From the NCBI GenBank assembly GCA_040429635.1, contig CP158972.1, positions 1,126,001 through 1,190,000 on the forward strand: DNA of 64,000 nt, given 5' to 3'. The translations under genes were made by a program, and so were the position numbers. Shown here one piece after another: positions 52,263 to 64,000 of this stretch; the stretch's first letter is position 1, and every line of letters begins with the position of its first letter. The DNA comes from Tamlana crocina (GTDB taxonomy: Bacteria; Bacteroidota; Bacteroidia; Flavobacteriales; Flavobacteriaceae). The notes under the pieces are model-generated. The model searched no databases. It was not told the origin of the DNA and saw nothing but the letters and a program-made list of their open reading frames with translations.

Positions 52263-52858
52263 TTGAACTTAAAGTACTCACATAAATTAATTATTGACAA
52301 TGTTAGCAGGTTTATCGATTTAACCGAGCTTGAAAAACAGAAGTATATTTCTTTGCTTACCGAAGTAAACGTCATGAAGAAAGCATTTTTAATGCAGGCC
52401 GGTGAAATTACTAGATATGAGTACTTCATTACAAAAGGTTGCTTAAAAGTGTATACTTTAGATGAAGAGGGGGCACCTCATATCTCTCTATGTTTGCGGT
52501 TGAAGATTATTGGACAGGAGACCTGGCCAGTTTTATCAATAAAGAACCATCGCGTTATTTTATTAAAGCCACTGAGGATTCTGAATTATTGGGTGTTTCT
52601 AGAGCTAATTATGATCTACTATTTCAAGAAATACCAAAATTTGAAAAGTTTTATCGCATTCTTTATCAAAGGTCGCTGATAAGTTATATAAGGCGCTCAA
52701 ATCATGGTATATCCTTAACAGCAGAAGAAAGATATTTGGTGTTCAAAAAAAAGTATCCAAATATTGTCAATAGAATTACCCAAAAAGACTTAGCTGGGTA
52801 TATTGGCATTACGCCAGAATTTATGGGCAAGATTATCTCCAAAGTCAATAGAATGTAA
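52263..52858 (+). pseudogene. Crp/Fnr-family regulator interrupted at a CT repeat
   Basis: The frame starting with TTG at 52263 encodes the cyclic-nucleotide-binding-like domain up to TLDEEGAPHIS, then loses phase in ATCTCTCTATG (about 52477-52489). In the other frame it continues MFAVEDYWTGDLASF to the end with the helix-turn-helix ITQKDLAGYIGITPEFMGKII. Removal of one CT restores a 198-residue regulator. The small barrel, DoxX and FMN-reductase genes that follow are its likely targets. Slippage, decay or sequencing error are all possible. Confidence 0.75.
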
Positions 52859-55681: not shown

Positions 55682-55698
55682 ACCTTTTTGTCCCAAAA

Positions 55699-55754
55699 TG
55701 TCAAATCTTCGGCACAAAGGGTCAATTTATTAAGACATCTTTTCATCAATTTTG
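55699..55754 (+). promoter_or_regulatory. AraC-type operator and promoter before the DUF4386 gene
   Basis: Half sites TGTCAA (55699) and GGTCAA (55720) are direct repeats 21 bp apart, two helical turns. A CAATTTTG box (55747-55754) replaces TAnnTTTG and no TTG -33 element is present. The same layout is at 62749-62804. Confidence 0.6.
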
Positions 55755-55778
55755 CTTTAAATCACAAACATTTAAAAA

Positions 55779-56504
55779 ATGAAAAGCATTAAATCTTTTG
55801 CGAGTATGAAATTGATCCGCTTTACAGGAGCACTCTATCTTTTGGTCATTATTTGCGCCGGCTTTAGCCAAGGTTACGTTCGAGGCACCCTAATTGTCCC
55901 GGGAAATGCTGTAGAAACAGCAAGCAATATATTACAAAACAAAGAACTGTTTCAATTAGGGTTAACCACCGACTTGATAGCATTTCTTTTAGACGCTGTT
56001 ATAGCCATACTATTGTATAAAATTTTTAAACCTTTCAATAAAACACTGGCGATGGTGTCTTCGGCCTTTAGGCTAATAGCACATCCAGCTATAGGAAGTT
56101 TAAATTTATTAAATCACTATATGGCTCTTAAAGTATTAGAAACTGATAGTTTGTCAAATTCATTTAGTATAACTCAAGTTCAGAACATAAGCACCTTATT
56201 TATGGAAGCGCATCAGTATGGATATCTTATCGCAGGAACCTTTTTTGGAGTGCATTGCCTTTTATTGGCAATACTAATTTACAAATCCAATGTATTCCCA
56301 AAGGTGTTTGGTGGCCTATTCCTTGGTGCCGCAGCTGGTTATTTGATAGAAACGTTTGGAAATTTTAATTTTCCGGGTTATGAGGGTTATACGGCTCTTA
56401 TCGTTGGTGTTTCGGCTGCTATTGGAGAGGTTGGATTAACTTTATATATGCTCATTAAAGGCACGACAACATCTTATAAAAACTTAAAAAACTTACCATT
56501 ATGA
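55779..56504 (+). CDS. DUF4386 family membrane protein
   Basis: A 241-residue protein with about six transmembrane helices, beginning with a short basic arm then FTGALYLLVIICAGFSQGYVRGTL, typical of DUF4386. The family has no established biochemical role. It is the direct downstream neighbour of an AraC regulator and overlaps by 4 bases (ATGA) with the following ABC ATPase gene, so it may belong to the same transporter unit. Confidence 0.85.
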   Translation: MKSIKSFASMKLIRFTGALYLLVIICAGFSQGYVRGTLIVPGNAVETASNILQNKELFQLGLTTDLIAFLLDAVIAILLYKIFKPFNKTLAMVSSAFRLIAHPAIGSLNLLNHYMALKVLETDSLSNSFSITQVQNISTLFMEAHQYGYLIAGTFFGVHCLLLAILIYKSNVFPKVFGGLFLGAAAGYLIETFGNFNFPGYEGYTALIVGVSAAIGEVGLTLYMLIKGTTTSYKNLKNLPL

Positions 56505-57373
56505 ACTCTTTAAAAATTAGCAATCTTAATCTAACCTACAAAAACGGTTACAACGCCATTAATGGTATTTCCTTAGATATTAAAAATGGCATGTTTGGGT
56601 TATTAGGTCCAAATGGGGCCGGAAAATCGTCTTTAATGAAAACTATCGTTGGATTGCAAAAACCTACATCTGGTAGTATCGGTTTCAATGATGTTGATAT
56701 TGTAAACAATCCCGATTACATAAAAAAGAATTTAGGATTTCTACCTCAAGATTTTGGTGTTTATCCTAAAGTAAATGCATATGACCTATTAAATCATATT
56801 GCAATTTTAAAAGGAATTTCCAACAAAACAGAGCGTCAAAATCAGATTCAATATTTATTAGAAAAAGTTAATCTCTGGAATTTTAGAGATAAGGAAGTAC
56901 ATACATTTTCGGGAGGTATGAAACAGCGTTTCGGAGTGGCACAGGCCTTGCTTGGAAATCCTAAAATAATAATTGTTGATGAACCAACAGCAGGGCTTGA
57001 TCCAGAAGAGCGTAATCGATTTAATACCTTGCTAAGTGATATTAGTAGTGAAGTTGTTGTGATTTTATCGACCCATTTGGTTGAAGATGTGAAAAATCTG
57101 TGTTCAGAAATGACCATAATAAATCGAGGAAGGGTTCTTAAAACAGGAAAGCCAAAAGAATTAATTAAAGAACTAGAAGGTAAAATCTGGTCAAAATTTA
57201 TTGATAATCATGAATTAGAAGTCTACAAATCAAAATTTAAGGTTATCAGTCAGCAACTTATCGAACGTCAATTACAAATCACGATATTTTCAAACGTGCA
57301 GCCAGAAGGATTTTTGCCGGTAGAACCAATACTTGAGCATGTCTACTTTAATGTGCTTTCTAAAAACAGTTAA
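56501..57373 (+). CDS. ABC transporter ATP-binding protein
   Basis: A 290-residue ATPase with Walker A GPNGAGKS (about 38-45), signature FSGGMKQR (about 138), Walker B IIIVDEPTAGLDPEE and the switch His in LSTHLVED. Its start overlaps the DUF4386 stop and its stop is 2 bases before the permease. The gene pair and order fit an ABC-2 exporter; substrate is unknown. Confidence 0.93.
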   Translation: MNSLKISNLNLTYKNGYNAINGISLDIKNGMFGLLGPNGAGKSSLMKTIVGLQKPTSGSIGFNDVDIVNNPDYIKKNLGFLPQDFGVYPKVNAYDLLNHIAILKGISNKTERQNQIQYLLEKVNLWNFRDKEVHTFSGGMKQRFGVAQALLGNPKIIIVDEPTAGLDPEERNRFNTLLSDISSEVVVILSTHLVEDVKNLCSEMTIINRGRVLKTGKPKELIKELEGKIWSKFIDNHELEVYKSKFKVISQQLIERQLQITIFSNVQPEGFLPVEPILEHVYFNVLSKNS

Positions 57374-57375
57374 TT

Positions 57376-60300
57376 ATGAATGCAATATTTCAATTCCAAT
57401 TACGGCACAGCGGTAACCGGTATATTTTAAGTTTAACAGGAGCAATATTATTGCTCGTAGGATGGTTCTGCGGTTATAAATTTAATTTAACTGCAGGTGA
57501 GGGTATATACCTTAATTCACCGTATACTATTGGGTTTATGATGGCCTTGCTTAGTTTGTCAATAATATTTTTAGCCATTTCATACGCAATGGAGATTCTA
57601 TTGAAAGAATGGGATACAAAGTTTGACATTATGTTATTTTCATATCCTGTTACTTTAGACACCTATTTAATAGGCAAATTTTCAACGTTTACTTTAAAAA
57701 CTTTTCTCAGTTTTTTCATTTTAATTGTTGGTTTTGTGATTGGTCAAAACTTGCGTACAGGAAGTGAGATGCAGGAAGGGTTTAATCTCTGGTTTTATTT
57801 ATATCCTTTTTTGATTTTCGGAGTGCTAAACTGCCTTTTTATATGTAGTTTTTTATTCATGGTCGCTTATACAACTCGTAAAAAATTATTGGTAGTTGTA
57901 GGTGGTTTATTGCTTTATGTGCTTTACATGGTTTTGTTGGTGTTTTCTAATTCACCATTTATGGCTGGAAGTACCCCTCAATCGATTGAAATACAGCAAC
58001 TATCAGCTTTGTTGGATCCTTTCGGGGTGTCTGCATATTTCTTCGAAGCTAGGAACATGACGGTCATCGCAAAAAATGAGATTTTAGTTCCGCTTAGTGG
58101 TTTTCTGGCGGCTAACCGTTTAATTTATCTATCTCTATCAGTTGTGTTTTTGATTATTACTCGACATTTTTATTCTAGTAACAAAAGTGTAAGTAAAAAA
58201 GAATTGAAGCGCAAAAAGCAGAAAGTTGGAGACACTATTGTTAGAATAGCAAAAGTTGAAATACCAGTTCTTGATTTTAGTTTTAAATCTGAATTGAAGT
58301 CCATTTTATCCTTTTCGAAAGTAGATTTAATTTATTTATTTAAAGGTGTTACCATTGTCGCGGTTACTATTTTGTTGGTCTTTTTTGTAGGGATGGAAAT
58401 GTATGCGGCCATTGATAAGGGTATACGTTTACCCCAATACTATGCGAGTTCAGGGCTTTTAGCCACATCTATTTCTCAAAGTTTTCACTTGTTAGGCGCC
58501 TTCATTTTGGTGTATTTTGTTAACGATATTTATTGGAGAAGTGAAGCAGCTCGTTTTTATTTGATTGAACAGAGTACATTTTTTTCAAAATCAAAATTAA
58601 AAGGACACTTAGTATCCATTGGTGTATTATTACTATTTCTAACGACTATACTTATTGCATTGGCTTTACTTTTTCAAATAAGCTATGGATATACCCAAAT
58701 TGATTGTTTGGCATATTTAGGTGTTGTACTATTTAACACCATTCCACTTTTTCTTTTTGGAACTTTAATGCTTATTATAAACTGTGTTTTTAAAAATAAG
58801 TACGTCGCCTTAGGTGTTTCCATTATTTCAGTAATAGTTCTTGCAACACCCTTGATTAAGATGATGTTGCCCTATCCATTATTCCATGTTTTCTCAGGCT
58901 TTAAAGGCGTGTACAGTGACCTAAATGGTTATGGTGTGTACTTGTCTGTATTTTCAAGCCGCTTATGTTTTGGAGTAAGTTTGTTAGGATTATTGTGGAT
59001 TGTCAATTCATATTTTAAATCAAGACAATGGACAAAAATGAAGTCTGTTTTTGTCATTGTTTTCTTGGGATTAGGCGTCTCTAGTGGTGTTAACTTCATG
59101 GAAGGTTATATGCCGAAGAATGAGGATTCTAAAATGATAGAAGCTTTTAACTACGAAAAGAAATATCGTCATTATCAGAATATTCCCCAACCTACTGTTG
59201 TTGATGTAGATACTAAAATTGACTTGTTTCCATCTAAAAACTCATATAACATTCAAGGTAAATATGTATTACAAAATTTAACAGAAGGACCAATACACAG
59301 TATATTATTAAATTTTCATTCAGATTTAGAGCTAGAGGAGGCCACTTTTAATGTCCATGGTGAAAATATTGCAATTGATGAGTTAATCACGGAACTACAA
59401 CTTGGTAAACCTTTACTACCTAATAAGACAGCAGTATTGGACTTCAAATTGTCTTATAATTGGTATGCCGTAAACGGTCATCAATCCTTCAATGCAATTG
59501 TAGGAAATGGATCGTTTATGAGGATAAGTAATTACTATCCAGTACTGGGATACCAATCAGATAAAGAGATAGCGGATGAGCAAAAGCGAAAAGAGTATAA
59601 ATTAGCCGCTAAAACTGGCTTGAAAGCACTTGAAATGCCTGAGGTCTTCAGGAGTGACTTTATAAAATTGAATATGACCGTTTCAACTGAGGGGGGCCAA
59701 ACGCCAATTGGAACTGGAGATGTTGTGAGGTCATGGTCAGATAATGGTAGAACTTTTGTGCAACACAAGGTTGACAGCATCCCATTTCGTTTCGCAATAG
59801 CATCTGCAGCATATAAAAAACAATCATTACTCCATCGAAACATAACAATTGAAGTGTTATACGATGATATGCATTTTGAAAACGTGGATCGACTTCTTAA
59901 TAATGCCAAACTAAGTTTAGACTACTGCATAGATAACTTTGGCACTTATCCCTTTGAAAAAATCAGTTTTGTTGAAGTGTCATCTTTTACCAGTGGCTTT
60001 GCGGCAACTGCTTATCCGTCTGCTGTATTTATGACCGAAAACCTAATTTTTCATACCAACATAGAAAGTGATCCTAGTAAGGATGTGATTAATGAACTTG
60101 CTGGACACGAATTGTCTCATTTATGGTGGGGAAATAGTCAAGTTAGTCCGGATATAAGAGAGGGTGCTTCTATGCTTACAGAAACCTTAGCCATGTATGC
60201 GGAAATGATGATTTACAAACGATTGTATGGAGAAGAACGCATGAAGGAACGTTTAGCAATACATGAACAAATTTATGAAAATGAAAAAGGATTATATGGT

Positions 60301-60546
60301 GATTCAGCACTATTTAAAGTGCCTTATGGTGCAACTCATCTTGCTTATTCAAAGGGAGCTGTTGCTATGGTAGAATTATCAAAGTTAATTGGTGAAGACC
60401 AGGTAAATCTGGCATTGAGGAACTTCCTTCAAAATAATCAATATCCAAAAAAGCCAACCTCGTTGGATTTGCTTAATGAATTTTATAAGGTAACTTTAAA
60501 TAAGAACGTGAAATTACAAATTGAGGCATTATTTAAAGAAATTTAA
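57376..60546 (+). CDS. ABC-2 permease fused to an M1-family aminopeptidase
   Basis: A 1,056-residue fusion. The first ~580 residues have about twelve transmembrane helices in two ABC-2-like halves. From about 600 on lies a periplasmic M1-type metallopeptidase with zinc motif His911-Glu-Leu-Ser-His915 and the downstream Glu in MLTETLA. The spacing from HELSH to that Glu is 20 residues, two longer than in classic M1 enzymes, apparently by the REGAS insertion. Coupling export and trimming of peptides in one chain is a fair inference. Partner ATPase is the preceding gene. Confidence 0.85.
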   Translation: MNAIFQFQLRHSGNRYILSLTGAILLLVGWFCGYKFNLTAGEGIYLNSPYTIGFMMALLSLSIIFLAISYAMEILLKEWDTKFDIMLFSYPVTLDTYLIGKFSTFTLKTFLSFFILIVGFVIGQNLRTGSEMQEGFNLWFYLYPFLIFGVLNCLFICSFLFMVAYTTRKKLLVVVGGLLLYVLYMVLLVFSNSPFMAGSTPQSIEIQQLSALLDPFGVSAYFFEARNMTVIAKNEILVPLSGFLAANRLIYLSLSVVFLIITRHFYSSNKSVSKKELKRKKQKVGDTIVRIAKVEIPVLDFSFKSELKSILSFSKVDLIYLFKGVTIVAVTILLVFFVGMEMYAAIDKGIRLPQYYASSGLLATSISQSFHLLGAFILVYFVNDIYWRSEAARFYLIEQSTFFSKSKLKGHLVSIGVLLLFLTTILIALALLFQISYGYTQIDCLAYLGVVLFNTIPLFLFGTLMLIINCVFKNKYVALGVSIISVIVLATPLIKMMLPYPLFHVFSGFKGVYSDLNGYGVYLSVFSSRLCFGVSLLGLLWIVNSYFKSRQWTKMKSVFVIVFLGLGVSSGVNFMEGYMPKNEDSKMIEAFNYEKKYRHYQNIPQPTVVDVDTKIDLFPSKNSYNIQGKYVLQNLTEGPIHSILLNFHSDLELEEATFNVHGENIAIDELITELQLGKPLLPNKTAVLDFKLSYNWYAVNGHQSFNAIVGNGSFMRISNYYPVLGYQSDKEIADEQKRKEYKLAAKTGLKALEMPEVFRSDFIKLNMTVSTEGGQTPIGTGDVVRSWSDNGRTFVQHKVDSIPFRFAIASAAYKKQSLLHRNITIEVLYDDMHFENVDRLLNNAKLSLDYCIDNFGTYPFEKISFVEVSSFTSGFAATAYPSAVFMTENLIFHTNIESDPSKDVINELAGHELSHLWWGNSQVSPDIREGASMLTETLAMYAEMMIYKRLYGEERMKERLAIHEQIYENEKGLYGDSALFKVPYGATHLAYSKGAVAMVELSKLIGEDQVNLALRNFLQNNQYPKKPTSLDLLNEFYKVTLNKNVKLQIEALFKEI

Positions 60547-60547
60547 T

Positions 60548-61639
60548 ATGAAAACAGCAAGAAAGAACCTTATGTTAATAGTATGTATAACGTTAACATT
60601 TCCTTGCTTGGCGGCCACAGTGTTGGTAAATCAAGAATCGGAATCTATCGATTTAGTTATACAGACAGACAATGTTTCGATTGGCGGAACACTAGTTATT
60701 CCATCCAATCGTAAAGTGAAATCTCTAGTTGTCATGAGTTCTGGCAGTGGTCCACAAGATAGGGATGAAACCTTAGAGGGTTTTAAGATTTTTAAAGTTA
60801 TAGCGGAACACCTAGCCTCAAAAGGAATAGCATCTTTCCGTTACGACGACAGAGGCGTGGGAACAAGTACAGGTGATTTTGCAAACAGCACAATCGATGA
60901 CCATTCAAAGGATTTAGAAAGCATAATCGATTACTTTAAAACCTACAAAAAGTATTCATTCATTGATTTTATATTATTTGGTCATAGCCAAGGAGGTATT
61001 ATTTCTGCAAAGGTTGCTGTTAATAATAAGTCTGTGAAAAAAGTAATTCTAATGGGAGCGCCAGCAGTACCACTAATAGAGGTGGTACTTTATCAAGTCA
61101 GGCAGGAATATAAACAATCTAATATTTCGAAATCATTAATTGAAGCCGATATTTCAGCGCATAATAAATTGATGAGAGCTATTGAAGATAATAAGCATAT
61201 TGATGAAGCGTATCAATTATTTCAAGAAACTACCAAGTCCATACTGTATGAGTTAATGTCATCAGAAGAAATTGTTGATACCTTAAAAATCGAAAAAGAG
61301 GCGCTGGCCAAAGCCAACCAATTCAAAATAATTTATGCGTTACCATCACTGGCATCTTTCCTATACTATCACCCTTCTAAAGATTTAGAGTTATTGGAAG
61401 TACCTGTGTTGGGTTTATTTGGTGGTTTAGATTTTCAGGTTCCTATAGACCAAAATAAAGACCGTATGGAAAATGCACTTCTCAAATCTGGAACGGAGTA
61501 TCATTTTATAATATTTGATAAGGCCAATCATTTTTTTCAAAAGGCAACCACAGGAAGTAGGGACGAATATGCTTCCCTTGAAAAGAAATTTGTTGATAAT
61601 TTTCTCGGTGAAATTTCATCTTGGATACTTGATAAGTAA
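60548..61639 (+). CDS. Secreted alpha/beta hydrolase
   Basis: A 363-residue exported hydrolase from the ATG at 60548, with signal peptide (about 1-22). The nucleophile elbow is GHSQGG (Ser about 143), the acid is probably in FGGLDFQVP, and the His is in KANHFFQ. The fold is that of prolyl-oligopeptidase-like or dienelactone-hydrolase-like serine hydrolases (YDDRGVGTSTGD early motif). It starts 1 base after the permease-peptidase stop, so it likely acts with it on the same substrate. Confidence 0.85.
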   Translation: MKTARKNLMLIVCITLTFPCLAATVLVNQESESIDLVIQTDNVSIGGTLVIPSNRKVKSLVVMSSGSGPQDRDETLEGFKIFKVIAEHLASKGIASFRYDDRGVGTSTGDFANSTIDDHSKDLESIIDYFKTYKKYSFIDFILFGHSQGGIISAKVAVNNKSVKKVILMGAPAVPLIEVVLYQVRQEYKQSNISKSLIEADISAHNKLMRAIEDNKHIDEAYQLFQETTKSILYELMSSEEIVDTLKIEKEALAKANQFKIIYALPSLASFLYYHPSKDLELLEVPVLGLFGGLDFQVPIDQNKDRMENALLKSGTEYHFIIFDKANHFFQKATTGSRDEYASLEKKFVDNFLGEISSWILDK

Positions 61640-61702
61640 TTCAAAATGAATTGATAACATAGGAAAACATATTTATTTCTAAAATCGTAATTTAGTAATG
61701 TG

Positions 61703-61715
61703 TCAGGAATCCTGA
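61703..61715 (+). promoter_or_regulatory. Perfect palindrome before AraC paralogue B
   Basis: TCAGG-AAT-CCTGA within GTGTCAGGAATCCTGATGTC, 22 bases before the ATG at 61738; a possible binding site for a dimeric repressor or autoregulator. Confidence 0.5.
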
Positions 61716-61737
61716 TGTCTTTAAATTCAAATTAAAG

Positions 61738-62727
61738 ATGAAATACTTCTCTGTTAATCTATATAAAAAGATACTTAACTGTGCTATTGCTGAAGGAATG
61801 TCAAGCAAGGATTTTGAAAATTGGCCAATTTCGCTTGAAGAGGCTGAAAATTTAAAATTTGTTTCTGCGGATCAACATTTAAATGCGCATGAATTGCTTG
61901 ATGAAAAGCTTAAATCTGGATTTGCGATTCGAGTTGGTCAGCAGATGAAAATCGAAGATTATGGGGTATTGGGATTATCCTGGAGAACCTGTTCAAAGGT
62001 CAGAGAAATTTTTGATCGTAGTGAACGCTATTTTAAATTGCTATCCAATACCTATAATTGGGAAGTTAAGGATGGTGAAACTTTTTCTCATATAATTCTT
62101 AATAGACCTGCTAATAGTAGAGGAATGCAACTGTCCTCAGAAGCCAGTTTGTCTGCAACAGTAGTAGTTGTAAAAGCGATGTCTGAAAAAAATATTATGC
62201 CAGTTCAAGTAAGTTTCAAACATAAACCACCTAAAGATATTACCAGTTATAAGGAAGCATTTAATTGTCCTGTCTCATTTGATCAACCACAATACTCCAT
62301 AAGCTATAAAACAGAAGATTTAAATTTAAGAACTGCTAAAGCAGATGCCAGCATTAATAGTTACCTTTTACAACAAGTCGATGAAAAAACTAAAGGCATT
62401 AAAATCCCAGGCTCAAAATTTGTCCGAGATGTTGAATCTCTAATAAAAGATGCGCTACCCACAGGAATTCCAAGTATTCATCATATTGCTGACCTTACAG
62501 CTATGAGTAACCGAACGCTGACGAGAAGACTTTCTGAAGCTGGTGTTACTTATCGTGACTTAATTAAAAAGACTCAAGAAACCATTGCAAAAGATATGCT
62601 CAGTAATACCACACAAAGCATTGGTGAAATTGCCTTCTTAACTGGTTTTTCCGAGCAAAGTGCGTTCAACCGTGCTTTTAAAAAATGGACAGACCAAACT
62701 CCTTCAGAATTTAGAAAACCCAACTAA
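61738..62727 (+). CDS. AraC-family transcriptional regulator, paralogue B
   Basis: A 329-residue paralogue of the regulator at 54704 with the same layout: ligand-type domain (GFAIRVGQQMKIEDYGVLGLSWRTC) and AraC helices (HIADLTAMSNRTLTRRLSE, IGEIAFLTGFSEQSAFNRAFKKW). The second helix-turn-helix is nearly identical between the two, which predicts shared DNA contacts. Upstream of the DUF1772 gene, the spacer has the same operator geometry as near paralogue A. Confidence 0.9.
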   Translation: MKYFSVNLYKKILNCAIAEGMSSKDFENWPISLEEAENLKFVSADQHLNAHELLDEKLKSGFAIRVGQQMKIEDYGVLGLSWRTCSKVREIFDRSERYFKLLSNTYNWEVKDGETFSHIILNRPANSRGMQLSSEASLSATVVVVKAMSEKNIMPVQVSFKHKPPKDITSYKEAFNCPVSFDQPQYSISYKTEDLNLRTAKADASINSYLLQQVDEKTKGIKIPGSKFVRDVESLIKDALPTGIPSIHHIADLTAMSNRTLTRRLSEAGVTYRDLIKKTQETIAKDMLSNTTQSIGEIAFLTGFSEQSAFNRAFKKWTDQTPSEFRKPN

Positions 62728-62748
62728 AATTATCCTTTTGGCGGAAAA

Positions 62749-62804
62749 TGTCAAAAGGTTGTCTTTAAGTGTCAAAAATCTCTTTTGAACACTTCGCACC
62801 TTTG
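62749..62804 (+). promoter_or_regulatory. AraC-type operator and promoter before the DUF1772 gene
   Basis: TGTCAAAA (62749) and TGTCAAAA (62770) are direct repeats 21 bp apart; CACCTTTG (62797-62804) starts 27 bp after the second, with no -33 TTG. Geometry equals that at 55699-55754. Confidence 0.65.
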
Positions 62805-62873
62805 TATCATCAAATTAACAACTCGATATAACAACAGTATCAATCTGGATTACATCCACAAAGAGTAATCAAA

Positions 62874-63368
62874 ATGGAAATAAACTTTAAAATTATCGTA
62901 TTAATACTAGGCATCTTATTTACAGGCCTAACAGCAGGATTGTGCTTCACATGGTCTAATGCTATAACACCCGGCATTGGCAGATTGGATGACTTAGAAT
63001 TCTTGCAATCCTTTCAGGCAATGAATCGCGCCATCATCAACCCGAGTTTTCTCATTGTTTTTTTTGGACCAGTGATACTATTATTCATTAATGCTTTTTT
63101 GCATAGGAGCTCGAATCCAACCACATTTTGGTCATTTACTCTGGCTGCAATTTTGTTTTTTGTGGGAATAGGTCTTATTACAATTTTTAAAAATGTTCCG
63201 CTTAATGAGACTCTAGACAAAACAACCTTGGAAAATTTATCGGCAATTGAACTTAAAGAATTGCGAACAAAATTTGAGCAACCTTGGAATCGCTGGCACA
63301 TTCAACGCACGATAGCATCGTTCACATCATTTGCGCTCTTAATAACCGGACTAATGTATTCAAAATAA
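62874..63368 (+). CDS. DUF1772 family membrane protein
   Basis: A 164-residue protein with four transmembrane helices (about 5-28, 55-75, 88-105, 145-161) and the FTGLTAGLCFTWSNAITPGIGRL start and NVPLNE motif typical of DUF1772. Related fungal proteins include anthrone oxygenases, but this group lacks a proven activity. It is controlled, by position, by the AraC-type operator just upstream. Confidence 0.85.
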   Translation: MEINFKIIVLILGILFTGLTAGLCFTWSNAITPGIGRLDDLEFLQSFQAMNRAIINPSFLIVFFGPVILLFINAFLHRSSNPTTFWSFTLAAILFFVGIGLITIFKNVPLNETLDKTTLENLSAIELKELRTKFEQPWNRWHIQRTIASFTSFALLITGLMYSK

Positions 63369-63411: not shown

Positions 63412-63813
63412 ATGAAACAAATTAGAATCATAGGTATTGCTATAATAATCTGGATTATAGGAGTTAGTATTTACACTCTTTCATTTTACATCCCAATTTT
63501 AGAAGACTCTGAATTACAAGCTAATATTTTACTGTCTTTAGGAATACTACCCGTAGTGTGGTTTGGAGCAAAACAATACTACAAAAGAAAAAGTACTACG
63601 AAAGGATACTGGTTAGGGTTAGCCTTTTTCTTAATCGCTGGCGTTCTGGATGCACTAATTTCAGTACCCTATTTAATAGCACCATATGGAGGAACACATT
63701 ATAGTTTCTTTACTGCTATCGGTTTTTGGCTTATCGGAATCGAATTTATAGTAATGTCAACTGCTTATTGGTACATCAATGTTAAAAGCAGAAGAAATAT
63801 TACAAATTATTGA
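63412..63813 (+). CDS. Small four-helix membrane protein (DUF5367-like)
   Basis: A 133-residue protein with four hydrophobic helices (about 6-27, 40-56, 67-88, 98-124). The pattern and neighbourhood resemble DUF5367 proteins, but I am only fairly sure of that name. It follows the DUF1772 gene by 43 bases and precedes an NmrA-like gene by 55 bases, so the three may form an operon. Confidence 0.7.
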   Translation: MKQIRIIGIAIIIWIIGVSIYTLSFYIPILEDSELQANILLSLGILPVVWFGAKQYYKRKSTTKGYWLGLAFFLIAGVLDALISVPYLIAPYGGTHYSFFTAIGFWLIGIEFIVMSTAYWYINVKSRRNITNY

Positions 63814-63868: not shown

Positions 63869-64000
63869 ATGAAAACAGAAAACATTTTAGTTATCGGAGG
63901 AACTGGTAAAACTGGTCGCCGAGTTGCAGAAAATTTAACACAATCCGGACACAACGTACGCGTTGTGGGCAGAAAAACAAACCCAGCTTTTGATTGGGAA
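63869..64000 (+). CDS. NmrA-like NAD(P)H-binding protein, cut by window edge
   Basis: The first 44 residues are visible, starting MKTENILVIGGTGKTGRRV, the Rossmann start of the NmrA/atypical SDR family. The remaining part lies beyond the window. It resembles the start of the protein at 46257. Proteins of this type act as NADP-binding sensors or reductases. Confidence 0.75.
   Translation, partial: MKTENILVIGGTGKTGRRVAENLTQSGHNVRVVGRKTNPAFDWE

Follow-up and report, generated by a model that had tools for sequence, protein, structure and literature searches.

A direct-repeat operator beside AraC-family regulators of the PF12625 group in Tamlana crocina and its relatives

Introduction

AraC of Escherichia coli recognizes a two-box half site of 17 bp in direct repeat, TAGC-N7-TCCATA, and the tandem sites of XylS (TGCA-N6-GGNTA-N6-TGCA-N6-GGNTA) and MekR (CACC-N5-CTTCAA-N6-CACC-N5-CTTCAA) are likewise two-box direct repeats, with a period of 21 bp by our own arithmetic (accessible part of PMC4514859). 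Here, we describe an operator of this kind that occurs twice in a 64,000-bp stretch (the window) of the 3,752,971-bp genome of Tamlana crocina, each time between the gene of an AraC-family regulator with a PF12625 domain and the gene that follows it. The layout resembles that of the three described systems and the period that of XylS and MekR, whereas the box sequences are different and the promoters carry a Bacteroidota -7 box instead of the sigma-70 -35 and -10 elements. Closer in phylogeny are the AraC-type regulators of Bacteroides (hybrid two-component systems and RhaR), members of the same phylum for which direct repeats with a period of about 21 bp have also been predicted; their regulators and their carbohydrate-use targets differ from those described here, and the motif TTGGC-N6-TGTCAA was not found in the accessible sections of those accounts (PMC3878776, PMC3870299). 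A further likeness is to SphR of Pseudomonas aeruginosa, an AraC-family activator that, according to the accessible part of PMC3900636, binds both the hydrophobic ligand sphingosine and two direct repeats of TGNCCSNNRNNSNCC 6-8 bp apart. By eye, the TGNC start and the inner C of that repeat can be laid over TTGGC...TGTC, although the remaining sequence and the targets are different.

Judged from sequence comparison, the operator of the window is real, strongly conserved and of a known kind. What is new is the code in its exact form, its link with these PF12625 regulators as a group, and the signs of it in five phyla and with two types of core promoter. Our literature search, which left most subscription journals outside it, recognized no account of this motif, and this is weak evidence of novelty. 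With an operator of such precision, the targets of this AraC group can be predicted from genome sequence (in 16 genomes, one or two promoters close by in each). The operator also provides a clean case of predicted class-II activation at a Bacteroidota -7 promoter without a -33 element, and offers a way to ask if activator-dependent promoters cross between phyla with different core promoters.

Two operators behind the only two PF12625 regulators of the genome

A sequence-only reading of the window had proposed that each of the two spacers holds a pair of direct half sites 21 bp apart, with the second half site 27 bp before a CAnnTTTG box. Both spacings were confirmed: TGTCAA at 55699 is paired with GGTCAA at 55720, TGTCAA at 62749 with TGTCAA at 62770, and the boxes CAATTTTG and CACCTTTG lie at the expected distance (Table 1). 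The full repeat unit turned out to be longer, a 17-bp TTGGC-N6-TGTCAA that occurs twice with a 21-bp period, so that the complete operators span 38 bp each (55688-55725 and 62738-62775). The form of the unit seen in the window is TTGKC-N6-KGTCAA, with TCGGC in the proximal site of module 1 as the exception.

The number of such sites is not unusual in itself. With up to one mismatch, KGTCAA-N15-KGTCAA matches twice in the window, and at least two matches were obtained in 46 of 100 shuffles. In a search of the whole genome, the exact pattern matched twice, at the two window sites, and a backward control pattern once. The two matches begin 17 and 21 nt past the stop codons of the two PF12625 regulators, the only AraC regulators with this domain in the genome. 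Since the only exact matches each lie beside one of the only two such regulators, it is their place, not their number, that sets these operators apart. A 38-bp operator matrix, trained on the sites of 40 relatives with the window excluded, scored 41.5 for the module 1 operator and 54.4 for that of module 2; the next-best place in the window reached 1.6, and the maximum over 50 first-order Markov sequences of 64 kb was 8.3.

Conservation among related regulators

Searches for related regulators yielded 55 loci, which reduced to 45 distinct ones by the last 250 residues, both window regulators included. A locus with a broken frame and partial match (L042) and copies of the window (L001-L003, L008, L061, L062) were omitted. 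The records assign L029 to Calditrichota, L032 to Ignavibacteriota and all remaining named loci of this set to Bacteroidota. Conservation in orthologous spacers had been set beforehand as the test on which the idea could fail. A combined pattern and matrix scan placed the operator next to all 45 distinct regulators, with the 21-bp period throughout. In 42 of them it starts 4-14 nt past the regulator stop. The other three, L029, L010 and L036, lay outside the training set and were found by the matrix: the L029 operator overlaps the stop (score 39.1), and those of L010 (55.5) and L036 (39.8) are shifted downstream, ahead of DUF1772.

The same association was seen in a survey of 397 genomes of the family, in which window regulator 1 was the query and a relative was defined by E<=1e-60. 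Such a relative is present in 16 genomes. The operator pattern with up to one mismatch occurs in 12, all among those 16, at 14 places that are all near a regulator (the furthest at about 1.4 kb). When three mismatches were allowed, all 16 regulator-bearing genomes had an operator, and 20 of the 24 places were again near the regulator, within about the same 1.4 kb. The four places elsewhere all carry three mismatches, and the backward control pattern occurs at three places in the same genomes. A genome-wide regulon was therefore rejected, as the distant sites are at background. Across 395 genomes of the phylum, the exact operator pattern has a single occurrence, which is in the genome of the window. 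Neither window regulator was found in two genomes of the same genus (G001, G002) at the cut-offs used.

Autoregulation through the same operator was also considered for this clade and rejected. In the matrix scan of the 45 loci no site with a score of at least 8 lay upstream of the regulator, and the 130 nt before each regulator start, read by eye, held no common copy of the operator.

Promoter box and class-II geometry

The 42 operators located 4-14 nt past the stop were used for the promoter counts. A box of the form NANNTTTR starts at offset 59 from the operator start in 41 of these and at offset 60 in L032; offset 59 puts the -7 box 21 nt past the end of the second half site. The TTG expected at the -33 position is missing from all 42, in line with the claim that both window promoters lack it. 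In Flavobacterium psychrophilum, the sigma-A -7 box TAnnTTTG spans -12 to -5, according to the accessible part of PMC9723704. With the box in that position, the half sites would lie, by our own arithmetic, at about -71 to -55 and -50 to -34. Such an arrangement, with a proximal half site that overlaps -33/-35 and keeps a constant distance to the core box, is class-II geometry. A scan for terminators and sigma-70 promoters, made on the first spacer only, found none.

Operators ahead of targets away from the regulator

Several relatives carry more than one operator. In genomes G031 and G323, a gene that is DJ-1-like by eye has been inserted between DUF4386 and the regulator, which shares 78-79% identity with window regulator 1. 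One operator precedes the inserted gene and another precedes DUF4386, and the spacing of the box is unchanged in both (the DJ-1-like gene with its own copy lies at 3351-4681 of L087 and 3468-4778 of L088). A second operator stands ahead of NmrA in L014 and L015, and L034 has a second operator as well. These arrangements favor an element of the target promoter over an element of the 3' end of the regulator gene.

The order DUF4386 followed by ABC genes is kept in three module 1 relatives (L087, L088, L089). Module 2 relatives mostly keep DUF1772, DUF5367-like and NmrA-like genes, as judged by eye, with Pfam applied to the proteins of L009 and L010. Their operons often include, again by eye, a small CxxCH protein or a CMD protein. 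The small CxxCH gene stands between the operator and DUF1772 in many relatives (e.g. L009) and is missing from the window at 62805-62873; the L009 protein has only a weak match, below cut-off, to a haem-binding family.

Outgroup regulators and other phyla

PF12625 regulators are present in 14 of 295 genomes of the class, the window genome included. Sixteen such regulators from 13 genomes, all outside the clade, served as outgroups; over the aligned stretch, their identity to the window regulators is 17-34%. For 11 of the 16, the region directly upstream of the PF12625 domain holds the best matrix site, and ten of these sites are on the opposite strand (binomial 2e-10). This value is optimistic, as the region was chosen after the data had been viewed. 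Five of the 16 outgroups (L096, L097, L100, L102, L105) have a site above all 300 Markov sequences, and five of the 11 positioned sites (L095, L099, L101, L103, L106) score no better than 10% of the simulations or worse. A box at offset 59 or 60 was seen in L094, L095, L096, L097, L102 and L105, and in L100 on the other strand. Several of the divergent genes are SRPBCC-like by eye.

Beyond these phyla, 14 loci on plasmids of Cyanobacteriota and Pseudomonadota were picked by hand from regulator searches that had matched 149 and 13 records. On three of the plasmids the neighboring genes are of the kinds already described. A Picosynechococcus plasmid has the order DUF4386-AraC-NAD(P)H-binding protein with an operator 7 nt past the stop (24.9). 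A Phaeobacter plasmid has AraC-DUF1330-NmrA-anthrone oxygenase with an operator at the same distance (32.4) and a second before NmrA (21.6). The site on a Ruegeria plasmid (AraC-NAD(P)H-binding-DUF4345) is weak (2.5). In two Burkholderia loci the opposite strand carries the site, upstream of the regulator and ahead of a protein that is sterol-desaturase-like by eye, and on a Klebsiella plasmid it lies ahead of an alpha/beta hydrolase. Five of the 14 sites exceed all 300 simulations (L107, L108, L113, L115, L120), with L107 and L113 carrying the same site. The simulated probabilities of the others are 0.007 for L118 and L119, 0.030 for L114, 0.057 for L109, and 0.077-0.91 for the remaining five. 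TANNNT was found at offset 59 or 60, the position of the Bacteroidota -7 box, in five of seven non-Bacteroidota places (background 0.0045 per position; binomial 1.2e-9). This value too is optimistic, since offset 60 was chosen after the outgroup sites had been viewed. The seven places were hand-picked, with the weak L109 and L119 included and L113 (a near copy of L107), L114 and L118 excluded.

These sites may represent one code, TTGGC-N6-TGTCAA twice with a 21-bp period and a core box 21-22 nt further on, that belongs to a subfamily of PF12625 activators and has been kept across Bacteroidota, Calditrichota, Ignavibacteriota, Cyanobacteriota and Pseudomonadota, while the arrangement of the genes (target downstream, divergent or convergent) and the type of core promoter (TAnnTTTG-like or sigma-70-like TAnnnT) have changed. 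We regard the case for this as evenly balanced. If it is true, the activator would supply the -35/-33 contact, and modules could pass from one phylum to another although the housekeeping promoters differ; such moves would need only the short core common to TAnnnT and TAnnTTTG.

Probable activation of the next operon

Based on the position, conservation and genomic association of the operators, we consider it very probable that the operon after each spacer has its operator and promoter there and is activated by the AraC-family protein encoded just upstream. Binding of the proteins to the half sites is suggested by their co-occurrence. By analogy with AraC, one monomer would occupy each half site, with one helix-turn-helix on each box, and the dimer would cover about -71 to -34 from a single face of the DNA. 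At -33/-35, the proximal monomer would then replace the missing -33 contact and touch RNA polymerase as a class-II activator, with a ligand of the PF12625 domain switching the regulator on. The target families (NmrA, DUF1772 and CMD, together with the SRPBCC-like and sterol-desaturase-like outgroup proteins read by eye) suggest that this ligand may be a small hydrophobic or redox-active compound.

Several points weigh against this interpretation. Forty of the 45 sites were used to train the matrix, so their scores are in-sample. The -7 box is variable at its first base, with C at 31, G at 5 and T at 6 of the 42 operators (L032, with its box one base further on, is among the T rows); the C for T noted in the sequence-only reading thus holds at both window sites and fails as a strict rule. 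No site beyond chance was found for 11 of the 16 outgroup and, depending on the cut-off, 7 to 9 of the 14 plasmid homologues, and since these are the majority, the operator code is not general to PF12625. Finally, the choice of activation over repression is argued solely from the position of the sites.

Several alternatives can be set beside this reading. One concerns specificity: each window regulator might also bind the operator of the other. The second helix-turn-helix is nearly identical in an alignment of the two, and a matrix built from module 2-type sites gives the window's module 1 site 35.3, inside the range of leave-one-out self scores of module 2 (30.0-59.9). However, 35.3 is in the low tail of that range, other module 1-type sites fall as low as 10.0 (10.0-36.2), and sequence scores are not affinities. 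Cross-talk is thus a tentative proposal, with the balance somewhat against it.

AraC-family proteins can repress, and the proximal site covers the -33 region, so the same operators could serve a regulator that is mainly a repressor blocking RNA polymerase there. This appears improbable, since the -33 TTG is missing in all 42 operators and the first base of the box is not T in 36 of the 42; promoters with neither feature look weak without help.

The sequence-only reading had also proposed that the regulator-operator-target unit was duplicated. The unit itself was upheld by the class-II geometry and the conserved spacers; the duplication was not. Related regulators about 6 kb apart with operators of the same kind would fit a local duplication in this lineage, with one module derived from the other, but the two regulators are only 38% identical and their targets are from different, non-homologous families (DUF4386 versus DUF1772/Anthrone_oxy). 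In the tree, window regulator 1 groups with L007, L044 and L046 (L047, a long row of unsure place, joins them and was included in module 1). The remaining group of 40 contains window regulator 2, and branches of 2.56 and 2.29 part the two groups. Each has closer relatives in other genomes than the other member of the pair, and 14 of the 16 genomes with a relative have a single match at E<=1e-60. A local duplication is therefore very improbable; on the tree and identities, the two modules are separate old lineages of one type of regulator, not recent local copies.

An RNA-level role of the repeats, in which they would form a hairpin or terminator where the regulator transcript ends (its 3' end), is scarcely credible. 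In its favor, every half site forms an imperfect inverted repeat, the fold of the module 2 spacer is better than that of most shuffles (z -2.98; as good in 3 of 200) and, of ten stem pairs, (-4,20) stands above shuffles (reached by 6 of 500) and (-1,17) slightly so (24 of 500). Against it, the module 1 spacer does not fold unusually (z -1.04), the other flank stem pairs show no excess, and operators also lie before targets away from the regulator and, in outgroups, on the opposite strand.

Genes and minor features of the window

Both window regulators combine an N-terminal PF12625 domain with a C-terminal double helix-turn-helix (HTH_18), above the curated cut-off. The nearest solved chains by sequence, both distant, are 5chh (an AraC family regulator, E 9.3e-14) and 8rcx (VirS, E 1.8e-13). 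The target families named in the sequence-only reading, DUF4386 and DUF1772, were borne out by Pfam (the latter under its current name, Anthrone_oxy).

Table 1. Operators, predicted promoter boxes and genes of the two modules (positions in the window)
Feature	Position	Strand	Basis
Regulator 1, AraC family, PF12625 (Arabinose_bd) + HTH_18, 325 aa	54704..55681	+	Pfam
Module 1 distal half site, TTGTC-N6-TGTCAA	55688..55704	+	sequence, matrix
Module 1 proximal half site, TCGGC-N6-GGTCAA, 21 bp from distal	55709..55725	+	sequence, matrix
Module 1 putative -7 box, CAATTTTG, 27 bp past GGTCAA start	55747..55754	+	sequence; role from TAnnTTTG consensus
First target of module 1, DUF4386 (PF14329)	55779..56504	+	Pfam
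ABC transporter ATP-binding protein, probably same operon as DUF4386	56501..57373	+	read by eye
M1 peptidase domain + weak ABC2-membrane match, probably same operon as DUF4386	57376..60546	+	Pfam
Alpha/beta hydrolase, possibly same operon as DUF4386	60548..61639	+	Pfam
Regulator 2, AraC family, PF12625 + HTH_18, 329 aa	61738..62727	+	Pfam
Module 2 distal half site, TTGGC-N6-TGTCAA	62738..62754	+	sequence, matrix
Module 2 proximal half site, TTGTC-N6-TGTCAA, 21 bp from distal	62759..62775	+	sequence, matrix
Module 2 putative -7 box, CACCTTTG, 27 bp past proximal TGTCAA start	62797..62804	+	sequence
First target of module 2, DUF1772 / Anthrone_oxy (PF08592)	62874..63368	+	Pfam
DUF5367 (PF17329), probably same operon as DUF1772	63412..63813	+	Pfam
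NmrA-like gene start, cut by window end, probably same operon as DUF1772	63869..64000	+	likeness to L009 8449-9291, PF05368

A few further observations were made in and around the modules. The spacer of module 2 can form two RNA hairpins (62734-62794), and in 11 of the 45 loci the proximal site is followed by a TTTGANCA element. A contig of Robertkochia sediminum carries two module 2-type regulators (L018, L022) separated by about 34 kb, and both have an operator of their own. The product of 57376-60546 is a protein of 1056 aa in which an M1 peptidase domain is joined to the weak ABC2-membrane match. Upstream of the modules, 52263-52858 contains two overlapping frames (52263-52679 and 52490-52858) that resemble the parts of a single Crp/Fnr-type regulator broken by a frameshift, with only a weak HTH_Crp_2 match below cut-off. 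Directly upstream of regulator 1 is an FMN reductase (PF03358; 54037-54621) that resembles, by eye, proteins in the module 2 operons of L011, L013 and L041.

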